A stretch of 64,000 nt of DNA from Qingshengfaniella alkalisoli (lineage in GTDB: Bacteria; Pseudomonadota; Alphaproteobacteria; Rhodobacterales; Rhodobacteraceae), in NCBI RefSeq assembly GCF_007855645.1, contig NZ_CP042263.1, positions 310,001-374,000 on the forward strand, written 5' to 3'. The notes beneath the pieces are model-generated. The model was given only the letters and a program-made list of their open reading frames with translations, searched no databases and was not told the origin of the DNA. The position numbers and the translations under genes were made by a program. Shown piece after piece: positions 3,147 to 64,000 of this stretch (positions are counted from its first letter, which is position 1; every line of letters starts with the position of its first letter).

Positions 3147-5501
<2,355 letters not shown>

Positions 5502-49493: not shown

Positions 49494-50321
49494 ATGGATA
49501 CCCAAACTCTGATCACTTTGCTGAGCGTCGCCATCGGCGCAGGTATCGGCGGCGGCATCCTCGCGGGGCTTCTGGGCGTCGGTGGCGGCATCGTTATCGT
49601 GCCGGCGCTCTACTTCGCGCTGTCGCTGACAGGGATGGAGCCGGGCCTGACCATGCAGGTTGCTGTCGGCACCTCGCTCGCCACGATCATTTTCACCGCC
49701 ATGTCATCGGCGTATGGGCATTACAAGAAGGGGTCCGTCGATACTGACCTGCTGAAGCTCTGGGGTCCGTCGATCCTTGTGGGCGTGCTGCTGGGCGGCA
49801 CGCTGGGCGGGCTGGTTGACGGACGTATCCTGATCGGTGTCTTCGCCGTTGTCGCCGCGCTGGTGGCCATTGACATGGTGTTCCGCAAGGTGCGCACCGG
49901 GCCGGAACCGCGCAGCTTTTCAAAGCCGGTCTGGGCCTTCTTCGGCACGCTGGCAGGGGCGATCTCGGCCATGATGGGCATCGGCGGCGGCACGGTTTGC
50001 GTGCCACTTCTGAATTTCCTTGGCTACGATATCCGCAAGGCCGTGGGCACCTCAGCCGCAATCGGTTTCATCATCGGTGTGCCAGGGGCAATAACCTACA
50101 TCCTCACCGGCTGGGGGCAGGACGGCTTGCTGCCCTTCTCGCTGGGCTATGTGAACCTGCTGGCCGTTCTGGTCATCATCCCGCTGACTACCACATTCGC
50201 ACGTGTCGGTGTAAAAATCGCACACAGCATTCCGCAAAGGGCGCTCCGGCTGGCTTTCGGGCTGTTTCTGGGGCTTACCTCCCTGCGCATGTTTATGGAC
50301 CTTCTGGGGAGTCTTTCTTGA
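49494..50321 (+). CDS. TauE/SafE family sulfite/anion exporter
   Basis: The 275-residue membrane protein has about eight helices in two repeats, each with a glycine-rich motif (LAGLLGVGGGIVIVPAL and AMMGIGGGTVCVPLL), the hallmark of TauE/SafE. Members export sulfite, sulfoacetate or other small sulfur anions, though many are unassigned. Here it may expel a sulfur or acid waste product of the pathway. It overlaps the next gene by four bases (TTGA). Confidence 0.92.
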   Translation: MDTQTLITLLSVAIGAGIGGGILAGLLGVGGGIVIVPALYFALSLTGMEPGLTMQVAVGTSLATIIFTAMSSAYGHYKKGSVDTDLLKLWGPSILVGVLLGGTLGGLVDGRILIGVFAVVAALVAIDMVFRKVRTGPEPRSFSKPVWAFFGTLAGAISAMMGIGGGTVCVPLLNFLGYDIRKAVGTSAAIGFIIGVPGAITYILTGWGQDGLLPFSLGYVNLLAVLVIIPLTTTFARVGVKIAHSIPQRALRLAFGLFLGLTSLRMFMDLLGSLS

Positions 50322-51019
50322 GCAACGCCGATCCGGCAGACCTGGACCTGATCGAACGGCTGAAAGCCGGGATTGCCAATGAGTCCCTGCTGGAGGCCGG
50401 CCGCATCCTGCCGGAGCGGCGCCTGGCCGAGGAGTTGGGTATCGGGCGCACGCGCCTGCGTCGCATTCTCGACCAGCTGGAACGCGACAGCGTGATCTTC
50501 CGCCATCATGGGCAGGGCACCTTTCCTGCCCCGCCGCCCGCGCTGCACAAGGACCGCATCAGAACGCTCGCCAAGGACGTGACGCCACATAACGTCATGG
50601 AGGTCAGGCTGGAAATCGAACCCGCCCTCTCCGCGCTGGCCGCCCAACGCGCCACCGGCGAAGAACTGCGCCAGCTTGGCCGCCTGCTGGATCGTACCAT
50701 CGACGCCCGCGACCCCAAGGAATACGACACCGCCGATGAAGTGTTTCATTTCAAGATCGCGGAACTGGCCCATAACCCGCTGTTTCTGACCATCTATCAG
50801 TCGATCCGCGCCCTGCGCCGCAGTGCCGACTGGACGGAAAAGCGGCAGGAAAGCCATTCGGTCGACATGATCGCGCGCCTCGGGGTTCAGCATCAGAACC
50901 TTTTCCAGAAGATCGAACAACGCCAATCCGCCGAAGCGGCGCGACATATGGAAGAACATCTGCTGACCGTGTCGAACGTCATGCTGCGGACCCGGCGCAT
51001 CGGGGTTCTCCACGACTAG
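50318..51019 (+). CDS. GntR family (FadR-type) transcriptional regulator
   Basis: The 233-residue regulator has a winged helix-turn-helix at about 20-75 (RILPERRLAEELGIGRTRLRR, ILDQLERDSVIF, GQGTF) and an all-helical FCD ligand domain (VMEVRLEIEPALSALAA). The start is a TTG at 50318 that overlaps the TauE stop, with GGGGAG 6 nt upstream; no in-frame ATG precedes the DNA-binding domain. It is the last gene of the ABC-ggt operon and probably controls it. Confidence 0.85.
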   Translation: MSNADPADLDLIERLKAGIANESLLEAGRILPERRLAEELGIGRTRLRRILDQLERDSVIFRHHGQGTFPAPPPALHKDRIRTLAKDVTPHNVMEVRLEIEPALSALAAQRATGEELRQLGRLLDRTIDARDPKEYDTADEVFHFKIAELAHNPLFLTIYQSIRALRRSADWTEKRQESHSVDMIARLGVQHQNLFQKIEQRQSAEAARHMEEHLLTVSNVMLRTRRIGVLHD

Positions 51020-54767: not shown

Positions 54768-56264
54768 TTACTTGATGCCGATTTCGGACAGCTGAAGCTG
54801 GCTGTTCGTGGCTATCGTCGGGGTGTAATCGACACCGTTGCCAACCCGCGCATGACCCACCATGTGGAACAGCAGGACGTCGGCAATGACCTCGTCATGC
54901 AGGTAACCGAACAGCTCCGACCACAGTGCCTCGCGCTCTTCGCCGGTGGCGGCGGTGGCGCGTTCGACCAGGTCATCGGCCTTGTCATCGGCAATGCCCG
55001 ACTGGCGACCATCGGAATGGTACTTGAAGTACATCGAGAACACCGGATCGCCGCGCGAGTTGTCGTGCTGTGCACCGACCAGGATCGGCTGGTCCTGGAC
55101 ATAGGGCTTCGAGTAATACTGCTCATGCTCGGCCACTTCGACCATTTGCAGACGGATATTGAAGCCCACCTCGGAAAGCATCGACTGGATCGCCTCGAAG
55201 GTTTCGGTCGCCCCGGGGAAGTTGCCGGTCCGGCCAACCAGCAGGATCTCGGTGTCGACGGGAACGCCGTCAGCCTTGGCCTCTTCCAGCAGCGCCTTGG
55301 CCCGTTCCGGGTCGTAGCCGCGCACGGCGGTGTCGGCATTCCAGCCCAGCGTCGTCGGCACGTTGATCGCGGTGGCGATATCGGTGCCTTCCGCCAGGAT
55401 GGTGCCGACAAAGGCCTCGCGATCGATACCGATGTTCAGCGCCTCGCGCACCCGCTTGTCATCCAGTGGCGCGACGGCATGGTCGATGCGCAGATACGTG
55501 GTTTCCGAGTTCGGATAGGACTGGTCCATCTCGGTGGTGGCGTCGATGGCCGAGATCGACGGCGCGATGTCGGCTTCGCCGGTGGCAACCATCGCCGCGC
55601 GGACGGACGGGTCATTGCGGAACACGTAAGTGGCCTTGGACACGGCGGGCGCGTCGCCCCAATAGTCATCGCGACGCTCAAGCGTGATACTCTGCCCCGG
55701 TGCCCAGTCGGCCAGAACGTAGGGCCCGGTACCGACGGGTTCGCGGGTGAACTCGATCGGGGTCTCCGAAGGCACGATGGTCAGAAGCGACAACAGCAGC
55801 GGCAGGATGGGCTGCGCCGGGTCGGTGGTGAAGTCGATAGTGTGCGCGTCCACCACCTTCGGGGTAATCGAGATGCCCTCGTAATAGCGCGAGATCTCGC
55901 AGGTGATCTGATCACTTTGGGCGCGCTCGAAGGAATGCTTTACATCCTCGGCATCGAAGGCAGACCCGTCCGAGAAGCTCACGCCCTGACGCAGGTTGAA
56001 CCGCCAGGTTGTGTCGTTCACCATCTCCCAACTTTCCGCCAGCCGCGGTTTCAGCCCCTCGTCGCCGCGCACGTCGAGTTCGGTCAGGGTTTCGCTGATG
56101 TTGCCCAGCACGATGCGCCCGATGTTCGAGCGGGTCGCCATGCAGGGCTCGACCAGGTCGGGCTCTTCAGCAAGCACGACCGTCACGTCGGCATCCTGCG
56201 CAAAGGCCGGGTTGAAGGCACTTGTCGCCAACAACGCACCGGCCAGAAGTGTCGCGTGTTTCAT
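54768..56264 (-). CDS. ABC transporter substrate-binding protein, family 5, second system
   Basis: The 498-residue binding protein has a signal peptide at about 1-22 (ending AFA-QDADVTV). Family-5 segments are present: WRFNLRQGVSFSDGSAFDAEDV and KRVREALNIGIDREA. It is the first gene of the leftward importer operon and is divergent from the sialidase-like gene. Despite the peptide-class name, the neighbours suggest an oligosaccharide or sugar-acid ligand. Confidence 0.94.
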   Translation of the reverse strand: MKHATLLAGALLATSAFNPAFAQDADVTVVLAEEPDLVEPCMATRSNIGRIVLGNISETLTELDVRGDEGLKPRLAESWEMVNDTTWRFNLRQGVSFSDGSAFDAEDVKHSFERAQSDQITCEISRYYEGISITPKVVDAHTIDFTTDPAQPILPLLLSLLTIVPSETPIEFTREPVGTGPYVLADWAPGQSITLERRDDYWGDAPAVSKATYVFRNDPSVRAAMVATGEADIAPSISAIDATTEMDQSYPNSETTYLRIDHAVAPLDDKRVREALNIGIDREAFVGTILAEGTDIATAINVPTTLGWNADTAVRGYDPERAKALLEEAKADGVPVDTEILLVGRTGNFPGATETFEAIQSMLSEVGFNIRLQMVEVAEHEQYYSKPYVQDQPILVGAQHDNSRGDPVFSMYFKYHSDGRQSGIADDKADDLVERATAATGEEREALWSELFGYLHDEVIADVLLFHMVGHARVGNGVDYTPTIATNSQLQLSEIGIK

Positions 56265-56389
56265 GTTTCCTCCCTGAAAACAGATCGCTTTCGCAAATAT
56301 TTGGAACGCAGCTGCGCCCCCGCCCCGATCTGAGGTGCCGCTTGGCGCAGTCGAGGCGTTTCCACGGCTTGCGGATTCGCGAGACCAGT

Positions 56390-56400
56390 ATTGGTAAACT
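56390..56400 (+). promoter_or_regulatory. shared operator-like motif, copy 1
   Basis: ATTGGTAAACT occurs here and, inverted, at 60749-60759 just before the kinase gene of the same module. A second TTGGTA follows immediately. The half-site ATTGGTA resembles operators of FadR-subfamily GntR regulators such as ExuR/UxuR. Confidence 0.5.
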
Positions 56401-56530
56401 TGGTATTAAAAGTCAAACGATAAACGTATTCAGTCGAAGATATCCCATAGAATGATGTTTTATAACTATTTATCTTGGATGAACCCGATCATGATCCCCT
56501 TCATGGCTAGTCGCTGCCGTAAGTACACTT

Positions 56531-56541
56531 GACAACTTGTC
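56531..56541. promoter_or_regulatory. short palindrome before the sialidase-like gene
   Basis: GACAACTTGTC is a perfect inverted repeat with a one-base centre, 48 bp before the start codon. Its size and form suit a GntR dimer. Confidence 0.35.
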
Positions 56542-56589
56542 CAATTCTTCACACATTCCGGCTCGATCACATACAGGAGGAAGCCGCGT

Positions 56590-57768
56590 ATGACGCCGGA
56601 CGAAATCGCAGCGGAAATGAACGGGACGCTGGTGCCGCGCGACGGAGGCCAATGGGCAATCTTGCCGGCCGGAACGATCCAGAACCACGCCGCCTTCCTG
56701 ACCCGGCTGCCCGACGGCGCGCTGGCCTGTTCCTGGTTTGGCGGCACGCTGGAGGGTAAGTCTGATATCTCGATCCATGCCGCGGTTCTCGATGAGGGGT
56801 CTGCGCAATGGGGCCCCGCCGCGCGACTGTCAGACGATGCCGCGCGCTCCGAACAGAACCCGGTCCTGTTCACCGCGCCGGACGGACAGGTCTGGTTGTT
56901 CAACACCGCGCAACCCGCGGGCAACCAGGACGAGGCCCGCGTCTTCATGCGCTCCGTTATCCGCAAAGAAGACCGCCTCGAGTCAGGCGAGAAACGCGAT
57001 ATCGGCCTACCGAACGGCACCTTCATCCGCGCCCGGCCTTTCGTGCGCGATGATGGCGCCTGGGTGCTGCCGCTATTCCGCTGCAACCCGCGCAACGGGA
57101 TTCGCTGGACCGGCGCCTTCGACACCGCCGCCATCGCGGTCAGCCAGGACAATGGTGCCACCTGGTCCGTTGCCGAGGTGCCCGATTCGGCCGGAGCGGT
57201 GCACATGTCTCCCGTGCCGCTGGGGGGCGCGGAAATGGCCGCCTTCTACCGCCGTCGCCAGTCGGATTTCGTGCACCGCTCGGAAAGCCATGACGGTGGT
57301 CGCAGCTGGAGCGCCCCCACCCCGACCGACGTACCCAACAACAACAGCTCGATCGGCGTCGCTCGTCTTGCCAACGGGGTGATCGGCCTGGTCTGCAACC
57401 CGGTCTCGGCGGCGCAATCGCAATCCCGCCGCACCTCGCTCTATGACGAGATCGAGGAAACCGACGACCGGGCCGAGGCCCGTGAAGGATGCGAGCCGAT
57501 CTGGGGCGTGGAGCGCGCGCCGCTTGCACTTTGCCTGTCATTCGACGGCGGGCTAACCTTTCCGGTCCGGCACGTCATCGAGGACAGCCCCGGAACCTGC
57601 CTCTCCAACAACTCGGAGGACGGGAAGAACAAGGAATTGTCCTACCCGGTCCTTCTGCCCCGCACCGATGGCGGGCTCGACATCGCTTATACGCTCTACC
57701 GCCGCGCCATCCGGCACGTGCGGCTGGATGCAGCGACCGTCCGCCGTCTGATCGCGCAAACCGCCTGA
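56590..57768 (+). CDS. BNR/sialidase-like beta-propeller protein, cytoplasmic
   Basis: The 392-residue protein has a six-bladed-propeller pattern with Asp-box repeats SQDNGATW (about 184), SHDGGRSW (about 232) and SFDGGLTF (about 317). The start region (NHAAFLTRLPDG, SWFGGTLEG) matches BNR_2 sialidase-like proteins. There is no signal peptide. The canonical sialidase R-I-P motif is not evident, so true sialidase activity is doubtful. It may act on another glycosidic or sugar-acid substrate. It leads a rightward pair with the Fe-alcohol dehydrogenase, 14 bp apart. Confidence 0.8.
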   Translation: MTPDEIAAEMNGTLVPRDGGQWAILPAGTIQNHAAFLTRLPDGALACSWFGGTLEGKSDISIHAAVLDEGSAQWGPAARLSDDAARSEQNPVLFTAPDGQVWLFNTAQPAGNQDEARVFMRSVIRKEDRLESGEKRDIGLPNGTFIRARPFVRDDGAWVLPLFRCNPRNGIRWTGAFDTAAIAVSQDNGATWSVAEVPDSAGAVHMSPVPLGGAEMAAFYRRRQSDFVHRSESHDGGRSWSAPTPTDVPNNNSSIGVARLANGVIGLVCNPVSAAQSQSRRTSLYDEIEETDDRAEAREGCEPIWGVERAPLALCLSFDGGLTFPVRHVIEDSPGTCLSNNSEDGKNKELSYPVLLPRTDGGLDIAYTLYRRAIRHVRLDAATVRRLIAQTA

Positions 57769-57782
57769 AAAGGAGTGCTCCC

Positions 57783-58907
57783 ATGTCCACCATGGACCGA
57801 ATGATTACCATTCATCAACCCAGGCGGCTGGAAATCGGAACCGGTGCCGCGGCGAAGGTCGGCGAACTGGCCAAGGGCGTGTCGCGCCCGCTCGTCATCG
57901 CCTCCGGCCCGACTGCGCAATATACCGACGGGCTGGGTCTGCCCGGCGACATAAGCGTGATTGATGATGTGCCGCCCGAACCAGACCTGCCAGCCTTTGA
58001 ACGGGTGCTGGAACGCGCGCGTGCGCACCGTCCTGACCTGGTGGTTGGCCTTGGGGGCGGGTCGGTGATGGACGTGGCCAAGCTGGTGGCGGCGCTGTGG
58101 AACAGCGACCAGACACTGCGGGACGTGGCCGGGCCCGACCGGGTGGCGGGCCGCGATACCGCCCTGTTCCAGGTGGCCACCACCGCCGGCACCGGGTCGG
58201 AGGCCGGAATTCGGGCACTTGTGACCGACCCGGAGACCAAGTCCAAGATCGCCGTGGAAAGCCCGCACCTGATTGCCGATCTCGCAGTGCTCGATCCGGA
58301 GCTGACCTATTCCGTGCCTGCCGCCGTGACCGCCGCCACCGGCGTCGATGCCATGGCGCATTGCGTCGAGGCTTTCACCAACACTCGGGCGCATGACCTG
58401 ATCGACGGCTATGCCCGCATGGGCTTCGGACTTGTCGGGCGATACCTGAAGCGTGCCGTCGAGGACGGCACCGATAGCGAAGCGCGCGCCGGAATGATGC
58501 TGGCCTCCTACTACGGCGGCATCTGCCTCGGCCCGGTGAACACCGCCGCAGGCCATGCACTGGCCTATCCGCTGGGCATCCGGCTGTCGCTGCCACACGG
58601 GCTGGCCAATGCCATCATCTTCCCGCATGTGCTCGCCTTCAACCAACCGGTCGCAGTGGCCAAGACCGCCGAGGTCGCCGACGCGCTCGGCCTGAAAAAC
58701 GCGGGCAGCGAGGATGCGCTTAAGGCCGCGGCCTTTGAATTCTGCCGCGACCTGGGGATCGAGATGCAGCTGAAGGCACATGGCGCGAACGAAGCCGATC
58801 TGTCCGACTGGGCGGAAGAAGCCCACGCGATCCGGCGGCTGATGGACAACAACCCGCGCGACATGAGCGTTGCGGATGTCCACACCCTCTATCACAACGC
58901 GTTCTGA
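57783..58907 (+). CDS. iron-containing alcohol dehydrogenase
   Basis: The 374-residue group III dehydrogenase has GGGSVMDVAK for NAD(P) at about 91-100 and metal ligands in DAMAHCVEA (Asp, His), AGHALAYPLG (His) and LPHGLANAI (His). The AGGAG ribosome site is well spaced for the ATG at 57783; the longer open frame is a shadow of the preceding gene. Members act on lactaldehyde, butanol, maleylacetate or sugar aldehydes. The module suggests a sugar-derived alcohol or aldehyde, which is not proven. Confidence 0.92.
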   Translation: MSTMDRMITIHQPRRLEIGTGAAAKVGELAKGVSRPLVIASGPTAQYTDGLGLPGDISVIDDVPPEPDLPAFERVLERARAHRPDLVVGLGGGSVMDVAKLVAALWNSDQTLRDVAGPDRVAGRDTALFQVATTAGTGSEAGIRALVTDPETKSKIAVESPHLIADLAVLDPELTYSVPAAVTAATGVDAMAHCVEAFTNTRAHDLIDGYARMGFGLVGRYLKRAVEDGTDSEARAGMMLASYYGGICLGPVNTAAGHALAYPLGIRLSLPHGLANAIIFPHVLAFNQPVAVAKTAEVADALGLKNAGSEDALKAAAFEFCRDLGIEMQLKAHGANEADLSDWAEEAHAIRRLMDNNPRDMSVADVHTLYHNAF

Positions 58908-58962
58908 ACAAGGCTGACATGGCGACCGGCCCTGTTGTGGGCCGATCCCGCCGCGTCGCCGA

Positions 58963-59712
58963 TCACATCGAAAGATCGAGCATTCCGGCCCCGAACAGCC
59001 GCGCGCGCGAATGGACGATATGATCCCGCATCACGCTGCGCGCACGCTCCGGGTTCTTCGCCTCAATGGCTTCGAAAATGCCTCGGTGTTCACCCAGCAC
59101 CTGCTCGAGCGCCGATGCACCATCGGACATCAGCGCATCACCATGCATCTTCATGCCGACATAGATGTGGTCGCGCAGCGCCTTCAGCGTTTCGGTATAG
59201 TACTGGTTGTTCGAGGCCCGCGCGATGGCGAGATGGAAGGAGAAATCCGCATCTTCCCGGTGCAGGCGCGATCCTGTGGCATCGGCCAACAGGTCGAGCG
59301 CCTTGTGCATTTCGTCCAGAACCTCCTGGTTGCGCCGCTGCGCCGCGAGTCCCGCGCCGTCCACCTCGACCGTCAGCCGGAACTCGTAGCTCCGCTGGAT
59401 ATCGGCGATGGTTTCGACCGGTGTATACCCCAGCGCGGTTTCGCGCTTGACCCGCACGAAGTTGCCCGCACCCTGGCGCGACACGATCAACCCGTCTTCG
59501 CGCAATTGCTCCAGCGCCACGCGCAAAACCGGGCGCGACACGCCGAACTGGCCCGACAGGTCCTTCTCCGCGGGCAGTTTTTCATTCGCGCCGTAGTCGC
59601 CACGCGTGATGCGGTTCTTGAGCGCGGCATACACCCTGTCTGACAGCGGCGGGCGACCGCTGCGGCCTGCGGGCGTTTTCGGCGTGGACTGATCCATCTT
59701 CGTGACCTTCAT
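58963..59712 (-). CDS. GntR family (FadR-type) regulator of the sugar-acid module
   Basis: The 249-residue protein has a winged helix-turn-helix at about 20-85 (LSDRVYAALKNRITRGDYG, KLPAEKDLSGQFGVSRPVLR, GLIVSRQGAGNF) and an FCD domain. The FadR-type arrangement matches sugar-acid regulators such as UxuR. The ATG at 59712 overlaps the kinase stop (ATGA), so the two are co-transcribed leftward. It probably represses the divergent genes around it. Confidence 0.9.
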   Translation of the reverse strand: MKVTKMDQSTPKTPAGRSGRPPLSDRVYAALKNRITRGDYGANEKLPAEKDLSGQFGVSRPVLRVALEQLREDGLIVSRQGAGNFVRVKRETALGYTPVETIADIQRSYEFRLTVEVDGAGLAAQRRNQEVLDEMHKALDLLADATGSRLHREDADFSFHLAIARASNNQYYTETLKALRDHIYVGMKMHGDALMSDGASALEQVLGEHRGIFEAIEAKNPERARSVMRDHIVHSRARLFGAGMLDLSM

Positions 59713-60746
59713 CTTTGCATCACCGTCTCGTCCAGGATCTCCGCCAGAAGACCCGGCGCGCCGAAGCCGCCCGACTTGGTGACCACCTGCACCCTGCCCC
59801 AATCGGTCTGCACCTCGCAGACCGGCAGGCCCGGCCTGAGTTCGGCACTCACTTGTAAACTGTTTAGACCGAACTGGTCCAGCACGGCCTGCGCGCTCTC
59901 ACCGCCGCAGATCAGAAGCGCCGCCGGTTTGACCTGCCTGGCCAGCTGCGCGGTGCCGCGAGCAAAGCGGGCCGCGGCCTCCAACCCGGAAATCCCTGCG
60001 CCGCCGTCGGAAATCGACAGGACCAGCCGGCCATGCGGAGCGGTGCCTTCGGGCACAATGCCGTCCGGGGCGTCGAGGCGTGTCACGCGCCCGCCCAGGG
60101 TCGCAATCTGCGCCCGTGTCACCGGATCGCGCGAGCCATTCGCAATCATCACCGACGGTTGCAATCGCGTTACCTCGGGCGCGGCCACACCGCTGGCCCG
60201 GGCCAGGGCAAAGGCAAGACCGCGCGCCCCGATCCAAAGGACGCGGCCTGTGCCGCCCTGCACCACCTCATCGAGATCGGCATCCGAGGCGACATCGGGC
60301 ACCTCAACCCTTCCAACAAAGCAGTCCGCCACCGGAATCGGCTGGTCGACGCCGCTGCCTTCCAGCGCGCCGTGTGTCACCCGCCGCCCCATTCCGGGGA
60401 TCGCCGGACAGGCCACGCGGCGGTCAGGCGCGAACCAGCGCTCCAGCGCCTCGACTTCCGCCATGATATTGCCCTTGAGGCGGCTGTCGACCTTCTTCAA
60501 CACCCTACCCACCGCCGCCGGATCGAGATGCGCCAGCGCCTCGCCAACCCGGCGGGCCGCATCCTCTGCCCGGATTTCCCGACTCGACGTATTGATGGCC
60601 AGCACGTTGGGCGCTCGGGCCAGCGCCTCGGGCACCGCCACCGGGCTGCGGGCGACGATGACGGACCGGCCACCGCCCGAGAATCCGACCGCCGAGTCCA
60701 GTGCACCGGTAAGATCATCGGCCAGAATAAGCGTATCGAGCGCCAT
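59709..60746 (-). CDS. four-carbon acid sugar kinase family protein (DUF1537)
   Basis: The 345-residue kinase starts LDTLILADDLTGALDSAVG; the ADDLTGA motif marks the DtnK/OtnK family, which phosphorylates D-threonate, D-erythronate or 2-oxo-tetronates at the 4-position. The C-terminal nucleotide-binding segment includes LLICGGESAQAVL and KSGGFG. Its partner in known pathways is a PdxA-type dehydrogenase, which is present on the other side of the promoter. The ATG at 60746 is chosen at the start of conservation. Confidence 0.9.
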   Translation of the reverse strand: MALDTLILADDLTGALDSAVGFSGGGRSVIVARSPVAVPEALARAPNVLAINTSSREIRAEDAARRVGEALAHLDPAAVGRVLKKVDSRLKGNIMAEVEALERWFAPDRRVACPAIPGMGRRVTHGALEGSGVDQPIPVADCFVGRVEVPDVASDADLDEVVQGGTGRVLWIGARGLAFALARASGVAAPEVTRLQPSVMIANGSRDPVTRAQIATLGGRVTRLDAPDGIVPEGTAPHGRLVLSISDGGAGISGLEAAARFARGTAQLARQVKPAALLICGGESAQAVLDQFGLNSLQVSAELRPGLPVCEVQTDWGRVQVVTKSGGFGAPGLLAEILDETVMQR

Positions 60747-60748
60747 AC

Positions 60749-60759
60749 AGTTTACCAAT
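60749..60759 (-). promoter_or_regulatory. shared operator-like motif, copy 2
   Basis: This is ATTGGTAAACT on the minus strand, two bases upstream of the kinase start codon. It is identical to the copy at 56390-56400. On this strand it reads AAATTGGTAAACT, so the AAATTGGTA half-site is extended. A repressor bound here would block kinase and gntR expression. Confidence 0.5.
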
Positions 60760-60919
60760 TTGCCAGTTGTTGTAATATACCTTACCTCAGAAATGCGAAA
60801 CATTTCCAGTATTGTATTGCATGTACTCCACTAATTTAACGTACTCGGCATTATAACTTGCAGCTTTTTTACCTATAGGTTAACTACCGCATCGAAGCCG
60901 CGGTTCCCAGGAGACAGAA
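60760..60919. promoter_or_regulatory. divergent kinase / pdxA promoter region
   Basis: This AT-rich gap carries a perfect inverted repeat, GAAATG at 60790-60795 and CATTTC at 60801-60806 around a 5-nt centre, and the ribosome site CAGGAGA before the pdxA-like start. Both promoters of the kinase and pdxA operons must lie here. Confidence 0.5.
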
Positions 60920-61893
60920 ATGCACGACAAGATTGTCATCACCATGGGCGACCCCTCGGGCGTCGGCGCGGAAGTGACCGCCGCAGCCCTGGCTGAGCGG
61001 GATGCGGAACTGCGGGCACAAACCATCGTTGTCGGCGACCGCGACACCATGCAGCGCGCGGTTCAAGCGTGCGGACTGGCCCTGACGATCATCGACCCGG
61101 AGGCGCCGGGCGACGGCATTCGCGTCGCCCACGTTCCGGTTGAGGATCTGCCTGGCCGCTTCGGCGTGCTTTCGCCGGCCTGCGGCGAGGCTTCCTTCCG
61201 CTATATCGAGCGGGCGGTGGAGATGACCATGGGCGGGGACGCCGCCTGTATCGTGACCGCGCCGATCAACAAGGAGGCCCTGAACTCTGCCGGGCACCAT
61301 TACGACGGCCATACGGGTATGCTGGCGCATCTGACCGGATCGAAAGCATCCTGGATGCTGCTGGCGTCGGAACGGCTGAACGTCGTGCATGTTTCGACCC
61401 ATGTGTCGCTCAAGGATGCGATCGGCCGCGCAACGACCGAGCGGGTGCTGGAAACCATCCGCATCGGCCACCGGCATCTTCAGCGCATGGGCATCGCCGC
61501 GCCGCGCATCGCCGTCGCCGGGATCAACCCGCATTGCGGCGAAAACGGCCTCTTTGGCAACGAGGATGACCTGCATGTCGCCCCGCCGTCAAGGCCGCCC
61601 GGGCCGAGGGCATGGACGTGCAGGGCCCGATCTCGGCGGACACGGTCTATCACCGCGCCTACCAGGGCGCCTTCGACCTGGTGATCGCGCAATACCACGA
61701 CCAAGGGCACATCCCGATCAAGCTGATCGCATTCGATACCGCGGTCAACGTCTCGCTCGGCCTGCCCATCGACCGCTGTTCGGTCGATCACGGCACCGCC
61801 TTCGACATTGCCGGAACAGGCAAGGCCAACCATGCAAACATGCTCTGCGCGCTGGATTACGCCGCCCAGATGGCAGCGGCAAAACGCGGATGA
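60920..61893 (+). pseudogene. pdxA: PdxA-family 4-phosphate dehydrogenase, single-base frameshift
   Basis: The first frame (60920 to about 61582) and a second frame one base out of phase (about 61583 to 61893) together give about 324 residues, a full PdxA. The metal-binding His residues are in [19 protein letters not shown] and [16 protein letters not shown]. One base seems lost in the C-rich run at 61581-61587 (the conserved APA-VKAA passage). PdxA2 enzymes oxidise D-threonate/erythronate 4-phosphate to dihydroxyacetone phosphate together with the DUF1537 kinase. A sequencing error is quite possible; if real, the gene is broken. Confidence 0.85.
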
Positions 61894-62795
61894 CACAAAT
61901 GACAGATCACAAAGAAGCCTTCGTCGCCCTCGTCACCTGTTTCAACGATGACGAGACCGTCAATTACGAGGCCACGCGCGCCCAGGTTCGCCGCCAGGTC
62001 GCAGCCGGCAACCATATCATGTGCGCAGGCACGAACGGCGATTTTTCAGCGCTGACTTTCGACGAGAAGGTACAGCTCTGCGGCGAGGTGGTCGATGAGG
62101 TCGCCGGGCGCACCCGCGTCATCGTCAATGCCGGAATGCCCGCAACCTTCGAAACCATTGCGCTGGCCCGCGAATTCGACCGGATCGGCGTCGACGGGAT
62201 CGCGGTCATCACGCCCTTCTTCATCGCCTGCACCCAGGACGGGCTGATCCGCCATTTCACCGCCGTTGCCGACGCCGTCGACACGCCGGTCTATCTCTAC
62301 GACATTCCAGCCCGAACCCAGAACCATATCGAACCCGAGACGGCGCGCACCTTGGCTGCGCATGGCAATATCGCCGGGATCAAGGATTCCGGCGGCGCGC
62401 AGGACACGCTGGAGGCCTACATGGCGATAGGCCGCGATGTTGCCGGTTTCGATGTCTATTCAGGCCCCGACCACTTGGTGCATTGGGCACTCGCCAATGG
62501 TGCCCGTGGTGTGATTTCCGGCCTCGGCAACGTGATGCCCGAGGTGCTGGCCCGGATCGTCGCTTGCGTGAATGCCGGTGACGAGGCTGGCGCGGCAGAG
62601 GCCCAGGCAACCTATACCGCCTTCCGCACCGATCTTTACAAGCTGGGCTATCCCCCGGCGCTGGTCAAACGCGCGCTCTACCTCAGCGATGCCTCCGTCG
62701 GGCTGTCACGCCAACCCGCGCTGCTGCCCGATCCCCAGCAGGACATGCACATCAAAGACATTATTCGGAAATACGGACTTGAAGGTGGGGCGTAA
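61890..62795 (+). CDS. dihydrodipicolinate synthase / N-acetylneuraminate lyase family protein
   Basis: The 301-residue class I aldolase has the Schiff-base Lys165 in GIKDSGG, Tyr137 in YLYDIP and a GTNGDF loop where the family has GTTGE. The IKDS type of lysine motif is commoner in sugar-acid lyases (NanA, KDG aldolase) than in true DapA. The ATG overlaps the pdxA stop (ATGA); another ATG three codons on is possible. In this module it probably splits a 2-keto-3-deoxy sugar acid to pyruvate and an aldehyde. Confidence 0.9.
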
Positions 62796-63392
62796 CGGCT
62801 TCTTCAAGCTGTCGACCGCACGTCCGACCGTCGATTGCACGCCCCGATGGTCAACCGGACTTCCCAGTCACGCCTGAAAGGTTATCGCTTGCCACCCTCC
62901 ACATAGTCTGGACAGTCTCCGAGCCGCACAGTGGCAAAACCCATACGCGTCCGCAATCGCATAGACCAAAATCATCCTCCTCGAGTCCCGCTGAAACGTC
63001 GGCGGACCAGACAGGGTCGTCAGATCGCCGTGTGCTCCAAGACATCAGAACCCCATGCAGAGGTCATTGCTCGGGACGCCCGGGCGTTGGCTTCATCGGT
63101 GTTGATGCGCCGCGACTGGACAAGGATGTGGGGGATACTCCCGTTAGCGTGAATCATATGCCGCGGCTGATGCCGCCTCCCCTTGATCCGGGGCCCGTCG
63201 TCAATGCTTGCGCCGAATAGTTGGCACACCCTGACAGATCTCGCGCAGGCACATGCCCGTGACACCAGGGTCGTAGGCTCTGAACCCGGTTGGCGGGCAG
63301 ATGCCCCAAGCAGTTGCATAGCCCTGCATCACCGGGTTGCCACCCCGAAGAACCTTGTGTAGCAAAATCAAACGTCAATCGGGAGGACATTC
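62796..63392. other. 597-bp region without a recognisable gene
   Basis: Short frames exist on both strands, but none has a recognisable domain or a good start. I see no convincing insertion-sequence ends. The last part carries the promoter and the GGGAGG ribosome site of the TRAP gene. It may contain decayed coding DNA. Confidence 0.45.
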
Positions 63393-64000
63393 ATGACATT
63401 TATTACACGCGGACTGGGCGCAACCGGCATTTTTCTTGCAATGGGCACTTCGGCCTTCGCGCAGACCGAAGTCAAGATCGGCTATGCACTCGCGCCCGAC
63501 AGCCATTACGGCGTCGCGGCTGCCAAGTTCGAAGAGGTCGTGAAGGCCGAAACCGGCGATGAATTCGAGTTCAAGCATTTTCCCTCTTCCGGGCTCGGCG
63601 GCGAGCGCGAAGTAATCGAGGGGCTGCAACTGGGCACCGTGGAGGCGACCATCGTTTCTTCCGGCACTCTTGCCAACTTCGTCCCTGACACCGGCGTGTT
63701 CGATATCCCGTTCCTTTTCCGTGATCTCGACCATGCCCGCTCCGTTCTGGACGGCCCCGTTGGCGAGGATATTCTGGCCAAATTCGAAGACGTGGGTATG
63801 CAGGGGCTGGCCTGGGGCGAACAGGGTTTCCGCCATATCACGAATAACCGCAATCCGATCCATACTCCGGCGGATGTAGAGAGCCTGAAAATCCGGACCA
63901 TGGAAAATCCGGTTCACCTCGCTGCCTTCAATGCCATGGGCGCGGCCCCGACGCCGATGGCCTGGCCTGAAGTTGTCTCTTCGCTGCAGCAGGGCGTAAT
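63393..64000 (+). CDS. dctP: DctP-type TRAP transporter substrate-binding protein (3' end cut by window)
   Basis: About 202 residues are visible. The signal peptide spans about 1-23 (ending AFA-QTEVKIGYAL). The DctP segments GGEREVIEGLQLGTVEATI and LKIRTMENPVHLAAFNAMGA (with the ligand Arg) and PTPMAWPEV follow. The GGGAGG is 6 nt before the ATG. The membrane subunits should lie to the right of the window. It may serve the sugar-acid module, but the 597-bp gap argues for a separate promoter. Confidence 0.94.
   Translation, partial: MTFITRGLGATGIFLAMGTSAFAQTEVKIGYALAPDSHYGVAAAKFEEVVKAETGDEFEFKHFPSSGLGGEREVIEGLQLGTVEATIVSSGTLANFVPDTGVFDIPFLFRDLDHARSVLDGPVGEDILAKFEDVGMQGLAWGEQGFRHITNNRNPIHTPADVESLKIRTMENPVHLAAFNAMGAAPTPMAWPEVVSSLQQGV

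Follow-up and report, generated by a model that had tools for sequence, protein, structure and literature searches.

Organization of the module

The window, that is, the whole 64-kb stretch of DNA analyzed here, carries a module that begins on the minus strand with the gene for an SBP5 solute-binding protein (54768-56264), the first of a Dpp-type importer operon. Divergent from it on the plus strand are genes for a BNR propeller protein (56590-57768; PF13088) and an iron-type alcohol dehydrogenase (Fe-ADH; 57780-58907). The next unit, again on the minus strand, starts with a DUF1537-type kinase (SBD_N, NBD_C; 59709-60746) and continues into an FCD-type GntR regulator (58963-59712; PF00392 and PF07729), which is the proposed binder of the sites described below; the ATG of gntR overlaps the stop codon of the kinase gene (ATGA). 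A PdxA-type dehydrogenase (60920-61684), interrupted in frame near residue 222, and a DHDPS-type aldolase (61890-62795) follow on the plus strand. The models nearest to the kinase and the PdxA-type protein were those of threonate-type acids, with all scores below the cut-off. The propeller protein (56590-57768) gave a marginal match to solved neuraminidases over ~70 residues (E 0.00085).

The ATG at 60746 is the most likely start codon of the kinase, since an in-frame stop lies at most three codons upstream in eight orthologs (L063-L067, L069-L071); in the window, the frame is open for 28 more codons upstream of this ATG. The PdxA-type protein is split in two frames, such that the full-length protein of a neighbor matches residues 1-222 in one and 221-321 in another, the affected region being 60920-61684 and onward to about 61881. 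Orthologs (e.g., L063-L067) have a single uninterrupted frame, and the break may be either a sequencing error or a real loss.

An 11-mer shared by the two divergent gaps

The sequence-only reading had pointed to one word common to both divergent promoters, and exact copies of ATTGGTAAACT are indeed present at 56390-56400 (plus strand) and 60749-60759 (minus strand). These two copies are its only exact matches in the 3,928,515-base genome (one forward and one reverse), and the reversed control of the 11-mer had 0 matches throughout the same 3.93 Mb. Read on the minus strand, the second copy is AAATTGGTAAACTGT, directly 5' of the kinase ATG at 60746, and with the start at this position the 11-mer ends two bases before the start codon. 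Upon dinucleotide shuffling of the gaps, which measure 325 and 173 bases, a common word of at least 11 letters on either strand was found in 39 of 2000 gap pairs, in line with the earlier chance estimate of roughly a few percent. When up to two mismatches to the 11-mer were allowed, the window contained 12 matches versus 4.85 expected, a number reached by 0 of 100 shuffles of the window. The pair alone is thus real but only mildly unusual, suggestive and not conclusive, and its meaning rests on the orthologs.

Orthologous loci and a motif learned at a distance

Loci came from 295 searched genomes of the family and from a scan of the collection, in which 462 places were confirmed and the best 80 retained. 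Since they were retrieved through gntR, the presence of this gene at every locus is by design. The module genes occur together in 18 loci (L063-L080) from Donghicola, Celeribacter, Marivita, Pseudooceanicola, Loktanella, Martelella, and other genera. The aldolase gene lies on the opposite side of gntR in L075 and L078-L080, L068 ends before the remainder of the importer, and L077 has no PdxA match. For motif placement, L068, from the same species as L074, was left out as a duplicate, and the 1175-base gap of L073 was excluded from the gap definition; L075/L042, L093/L043, and L141/L045 are apparently the same records. A second GntR protein of the window (50321-51019) gave no tblastn row at E 1e-10 in L063-L080, of which L068 and L075 are short there. 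Two further loci deserve mention as observations: L047 (G067:C50) holds a copy of the module with propeller, importer, aldolase, and dehydrogenase in pieces and one stop inside gntR, and L053 (G149:C3) is the second module of G149, with a GntR protein 44% identical and importer/propeller gap matches of only 14.1 and 12.6.

A motif was learned from 62 distant loci (L081-L142), 43 of them represented by the region upstream of the kinase-gntR unit and 19 by that upstream of gntR by itself. Removal of near-duplicates left 60 training regions, to which the window's own clade (L063-L080) contributed none. The resulting motif, CAATTTGTAAACTT, was estimated to be present in 81% of the regions with a log-likelihood of 194.5, while three letter-shuffled sets, run with fewer starts than the real set, gave 36.6, 49.1, and 37.5; taken more widely, the consensus approximates AAnTTGTAAAnTT. 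Of 17 orthologous loci, 16 had their best match inside the two gaps, which make up 2.4% of the sequence, the exception being L070, where the kinase-internal site described below ranked best. The same held for 43 of the 51 top-three matches. The corresponding means for one hundred column-shuffled motifs were 7.1 of 17 and 17.7 of 51, with maxima of 15 and 31, so that AT-richness and base composition explain part, not all, of the enrichment. Searching this genome with two degenerate patterns revealed no enrichment beyond the module (32 matches versus 55 for the reversed control, and 4 versus 7).

Candidate operator sites

Five sites, S1 to S5, were delimited, with ranks referring to all positions of the 64-kb window on both strands. 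S1 (56388-56401, plus strand; score 13.2, rank 8), which contains the first 11-mer, lies in the importer/propeller gap toward the importer. It overlaps a weak predicted -10 box (AATACT) of the importer operon, belonging to a promoter match TTGACT-18-AATACT with 9 of 12 consensus letters; the promoter scan of the region returned 2 promoter-like sites versus 0.8 expected. S2 (56525-56539, plus strand; score 14.97, rank 2) covers a -35-like TTGACA at the propeller gene. The promoter scan reported no full promoter at S2, and TTGACAACTTG occurs once in the genome. Alignment of the gaps from the window and 12 loci showed that every row has, toward the importer, TATTGGTAAA followed by C or G and TTG. 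Next comes GTCAA, also conserved, which resembles a -35 box when read on the opposite strand, and the propeller side has a block of the CTTGACAA type, shifted in L075. Among the 17 orthologous gaps, the S1 form ATTGGTAAA(C/G)TTG was found in 16, with a single change in L080, and the S2 form TTGACAA(C/G)T in all 17.

The highest score in the window (16.3, rank 1) belongs to S3 (60748-60761, minus strand), which contains the second 11-mer just 5' of the kinase ATG and might have an additional role as a weak ribosome-binding site. Its exact form, TTTACC(A/T)AT at the kinase start, is shared by only 7 of 17 orthologs; most of the others carry TTGTAAA-like words slightly further upstream, and 13 of 17 have a word of this sort within the first 45 bases from the kinase. 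Before PdxA lies S4 (60868-60883, plus strand), a near-palindrome TTTACCTATAGGTTAA with a motif score of only 10.9, present in the degenerate form TTTACCTATAGGTTA in 15 of 17 orthologs (not in L073 and L078). Finally, S5 (59849-59862, plus strand; score 14.95, rank 3) is a copy of the motif inside the kinase coding sequence, ~150 bp before gntR. Apart from those in the gaps and the kinase gene, matches scoring 13.2-13.4 are located at 3164, 62632, 17665, and 7134. That at 62632-62645 (13.4) falls within the aldolase gene, with a similar match in L071, and is probably a coding chance.

The earlier picture of two sites was right about both copies but incomplete, as further sites lie at the propeller promoter, at the PdxA promoter, and inside the kinase gene. 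The sequence-only reading would have been refuted by absence from orthologous promoters, but the motif does recur in the same gaps at 17 loci. The proposal that the importer/propeller and kinase/PdxA genes form one regulon is likewise supported, with the qualification that the exact copy at the kinase start is restricted to 7 of 17 orthologs. A search before the TRAP gene at 63393, which that reading had proposed as a check, was negative: no site was found there, the best score in 62796-63420 being 4.9, and membership of this gene in the regulon is unsupported.

A kinase-internal copy maintained through rare codons

At S5 the leucine codon is TTA in 12 of 13 sequences (CTA in L072), and the preceding serine codon is AGT in 11 of 12. 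Both codons are rare in the module genes of 14 loci, where, the site itself counted, TTA makes up 33 of 5216 leucine codons (0.6%) and AGT 84 of 2704 serine codons; other kinase columns have TTA in at most 2 of 18 sequences. These sequences are related, and the counts are not independent events. The retention of rare codons at S5 points to a constraint on the DNA. The site is weak though TTA is kept in L067 and L069 (8.7), scores 10.9 in L071, and is absent from L072, L073, L075, and L078-L080. In more distant clades, 7 of 33 kinase loci had a kinase-internal match of at least 12, five of them near the 3' end of the gene (residues 321-346).

The local regulator and its relatives

The local regulator combines a GntR N-terminal domain (PF00392, 69.1 bits, cut-off 27) with an FCD C-terminal domain (PF07729, 85.6 bits, cut-off 24.3), and its closest solved chains are PdhR and NanR. 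Motif matches were scored within 1.5 kb of gntR against a single-locus null with a 95th percentile of 13.4, derived from window positions 1-50000 only. This value was reached at 9 of 11 ortholog loci (L004-L014), no strong site being found near gntR in L008 (7.8) and L010 (12.0), and at 16 of 19 loci of more distant homologs (L015-L033), including a paralog from the same genome (17.1). Among eight other GntR loci of this genome (L034-L041), a single one did so (L036, 14.3). Where a recognition helix was found in the motif-bearing group, it mostly reads VSRP(V/I)(L/V/I)R; the helix search was empty for 10 of 39 loci, seven of which are distant GntR proteins of this genome, so that the association of this helix with the motif is no more than indicative. 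On the strength of these comparisons, the motif is one that belongs to a wider GntR group.

The paralog (G000:C5:293116-293817, locus L055) is an FCD-type GntR protein 41% identical to the local one, with the same VSRPVLR helix start, and its motif match lies ~100 bp before the gene. With a like helix and a motif match, cross-talk between the two is possible. Judging by eye from translations, its cluster encodes a Tct-type transporter, an oxidoreductase, an enolase-superfamily protein, and a gluconolactonase-like protein.

Proposed regulation and alternative explanations

Taken together, we consider it probable that the module's own FCD-type GntR protein recognizes an operator whose core is the 11-mer, with copies at four transcription-unit promoters. 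The units so controlled would be the importer, the propeller and Fe-ADH genes, kinase-gntR, and PdxA with the aldolase, with one more copy within the kinase upstream of gntR. Members of the GntR family usually repress by occlusion and are released by a metabolite. By this model, a GntR dimer would bind over the promoter boxes and repress; a pathway acid or its phosphate would then bind the FCD domain and release the regulator, import and breakdown would be induced together, and the regulator would control itself, perhaps also through the internal site. Judged from its position, the local GntR protein is the likely controller of the module.

The shared letters could be read in other ways. An operator that is genuine and read mainly by another GntR protein of the same helix group, or by several, is an unlikely explanation: the paralog has the helix start and an upstream match that it calls for, and 16 of 19 loci of more distant homologs have matches too, yet the local gntR accompanies the sites within the module at 17 orthologous loci and has motif copies before or within its own unit. 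We regard it as quite improbable that the letters are conserved as core promoter boxes and as a ribosome-binding site, with no operators among them. S1 does lie over the predicted -10 and S2 over the -35-like box, and S3 adjoins the start codon, with no other obvious ribosome-binding site in the orthologs that share it. However, letters outside the boxes are also kept, such as TAAA(C/G)TTG in a promoter spacer, and the same motif appears upstream of distant gntR genes and, spelled with rare codons, in a coding sequence. That two AT-rich gaps share 11 letters by chance is scarcely credible. The shuffled gap pairs allow for it, but the retention of S1 in orthologs and the top ranking by a motif learned elsewhere speak against it. 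For S1, chance is refuted; for S3, the case against it consists of rank 1 and the 7 of 17 orthologs.

Comparison with known systems

A literature search, in which subscription papers were thinly covered, found no paper on this regulon or motif among those listed. What is described here is a new regulon and motif under a known kind of regulator, and its most unusual part is the kinase-internal copy. For a regulator group with no description among those papers, it offers a binding motif and a set of targets that can be tested. Placing importer, propeller, dehydrogenase, kinase, PdxA, and aldolase in one induced pathway would narrow the search for the substrate, and the copy within the kinase gene would be a case of a regulatory site that imposes rare codons.

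The ExuR/UxuR palindrome is TTGGTATACCAA, and the half-site likeness noted earlier holds for the TTGGT core, shared with these E. coli regulators of the same subfamily, but not for the palindrome: the consensus is about AAnTTGTAAAnTT, and no ACCAA partner follows TTGGT at S1 or S3. As UxuR or ExuR, the local protein scored 57.8 of 442 and 51.1 of 396 bits, far below the cut-offs. The pairing of a DUF1537 kinase with a PdxA-type dehydrogenase recalls four-carbon acid sugar pathways, to which the module adds a Dpp-type importer, a BNR propeller, Fe-ADH, and a DHDPS-type aldolase, with model scores below cut-offs. Auxiliary operators inside genes are exemplified by lac O2 and gal OI. S5 similarly is an operator-like site within the coding sequence of a regulated unit; it differs from them in the regulator family, in being kept through rare codons, and in its place just before the regulator gene.

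For the FadR (FCD) subfamily, the operator is a TKGT/ACMA palindrome whose GT and AC are 2-3 nt apart (PMC4494728). The likeness comprises the GntR helix-turn-helix with FCD domain, the TKGT-type box, and the proposed control of divergent operons, among them the unit that encodes the regulator; the differences are the consensus of about AAnTTGTAAAnTT and an inverted ACMA partner that is not consistently conserved here (AAAG at S1 in most orthologs). GT-AA-AC occurs in the window at S1, S3, and S5, but the learned motif and the S1 sites of orthologs often have another letter in place of its C. NanR recognizes TGGTATAW direct repeats (PMC4494728). NanR and LldR were among the best-scoring models for the local protein, yet below cut-offs (93.1 of 260 and 109.7 of 311 bits), and identification as NanR is unsupported by this score and by the learned consensus, which has TAAA instead of TATA. 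We give an even chance to the view that a whole group of FCD GntR proteins from Alphaproteobacteria, those whose recognition helix is of the SRP(V/I) type, read a hitherto undescribed operator class of about AAnTTGTAAAnTT, together with a kinase-internal operator that would force rare AGT-TTA codons and allow autoregulation from within the neighboring gene.
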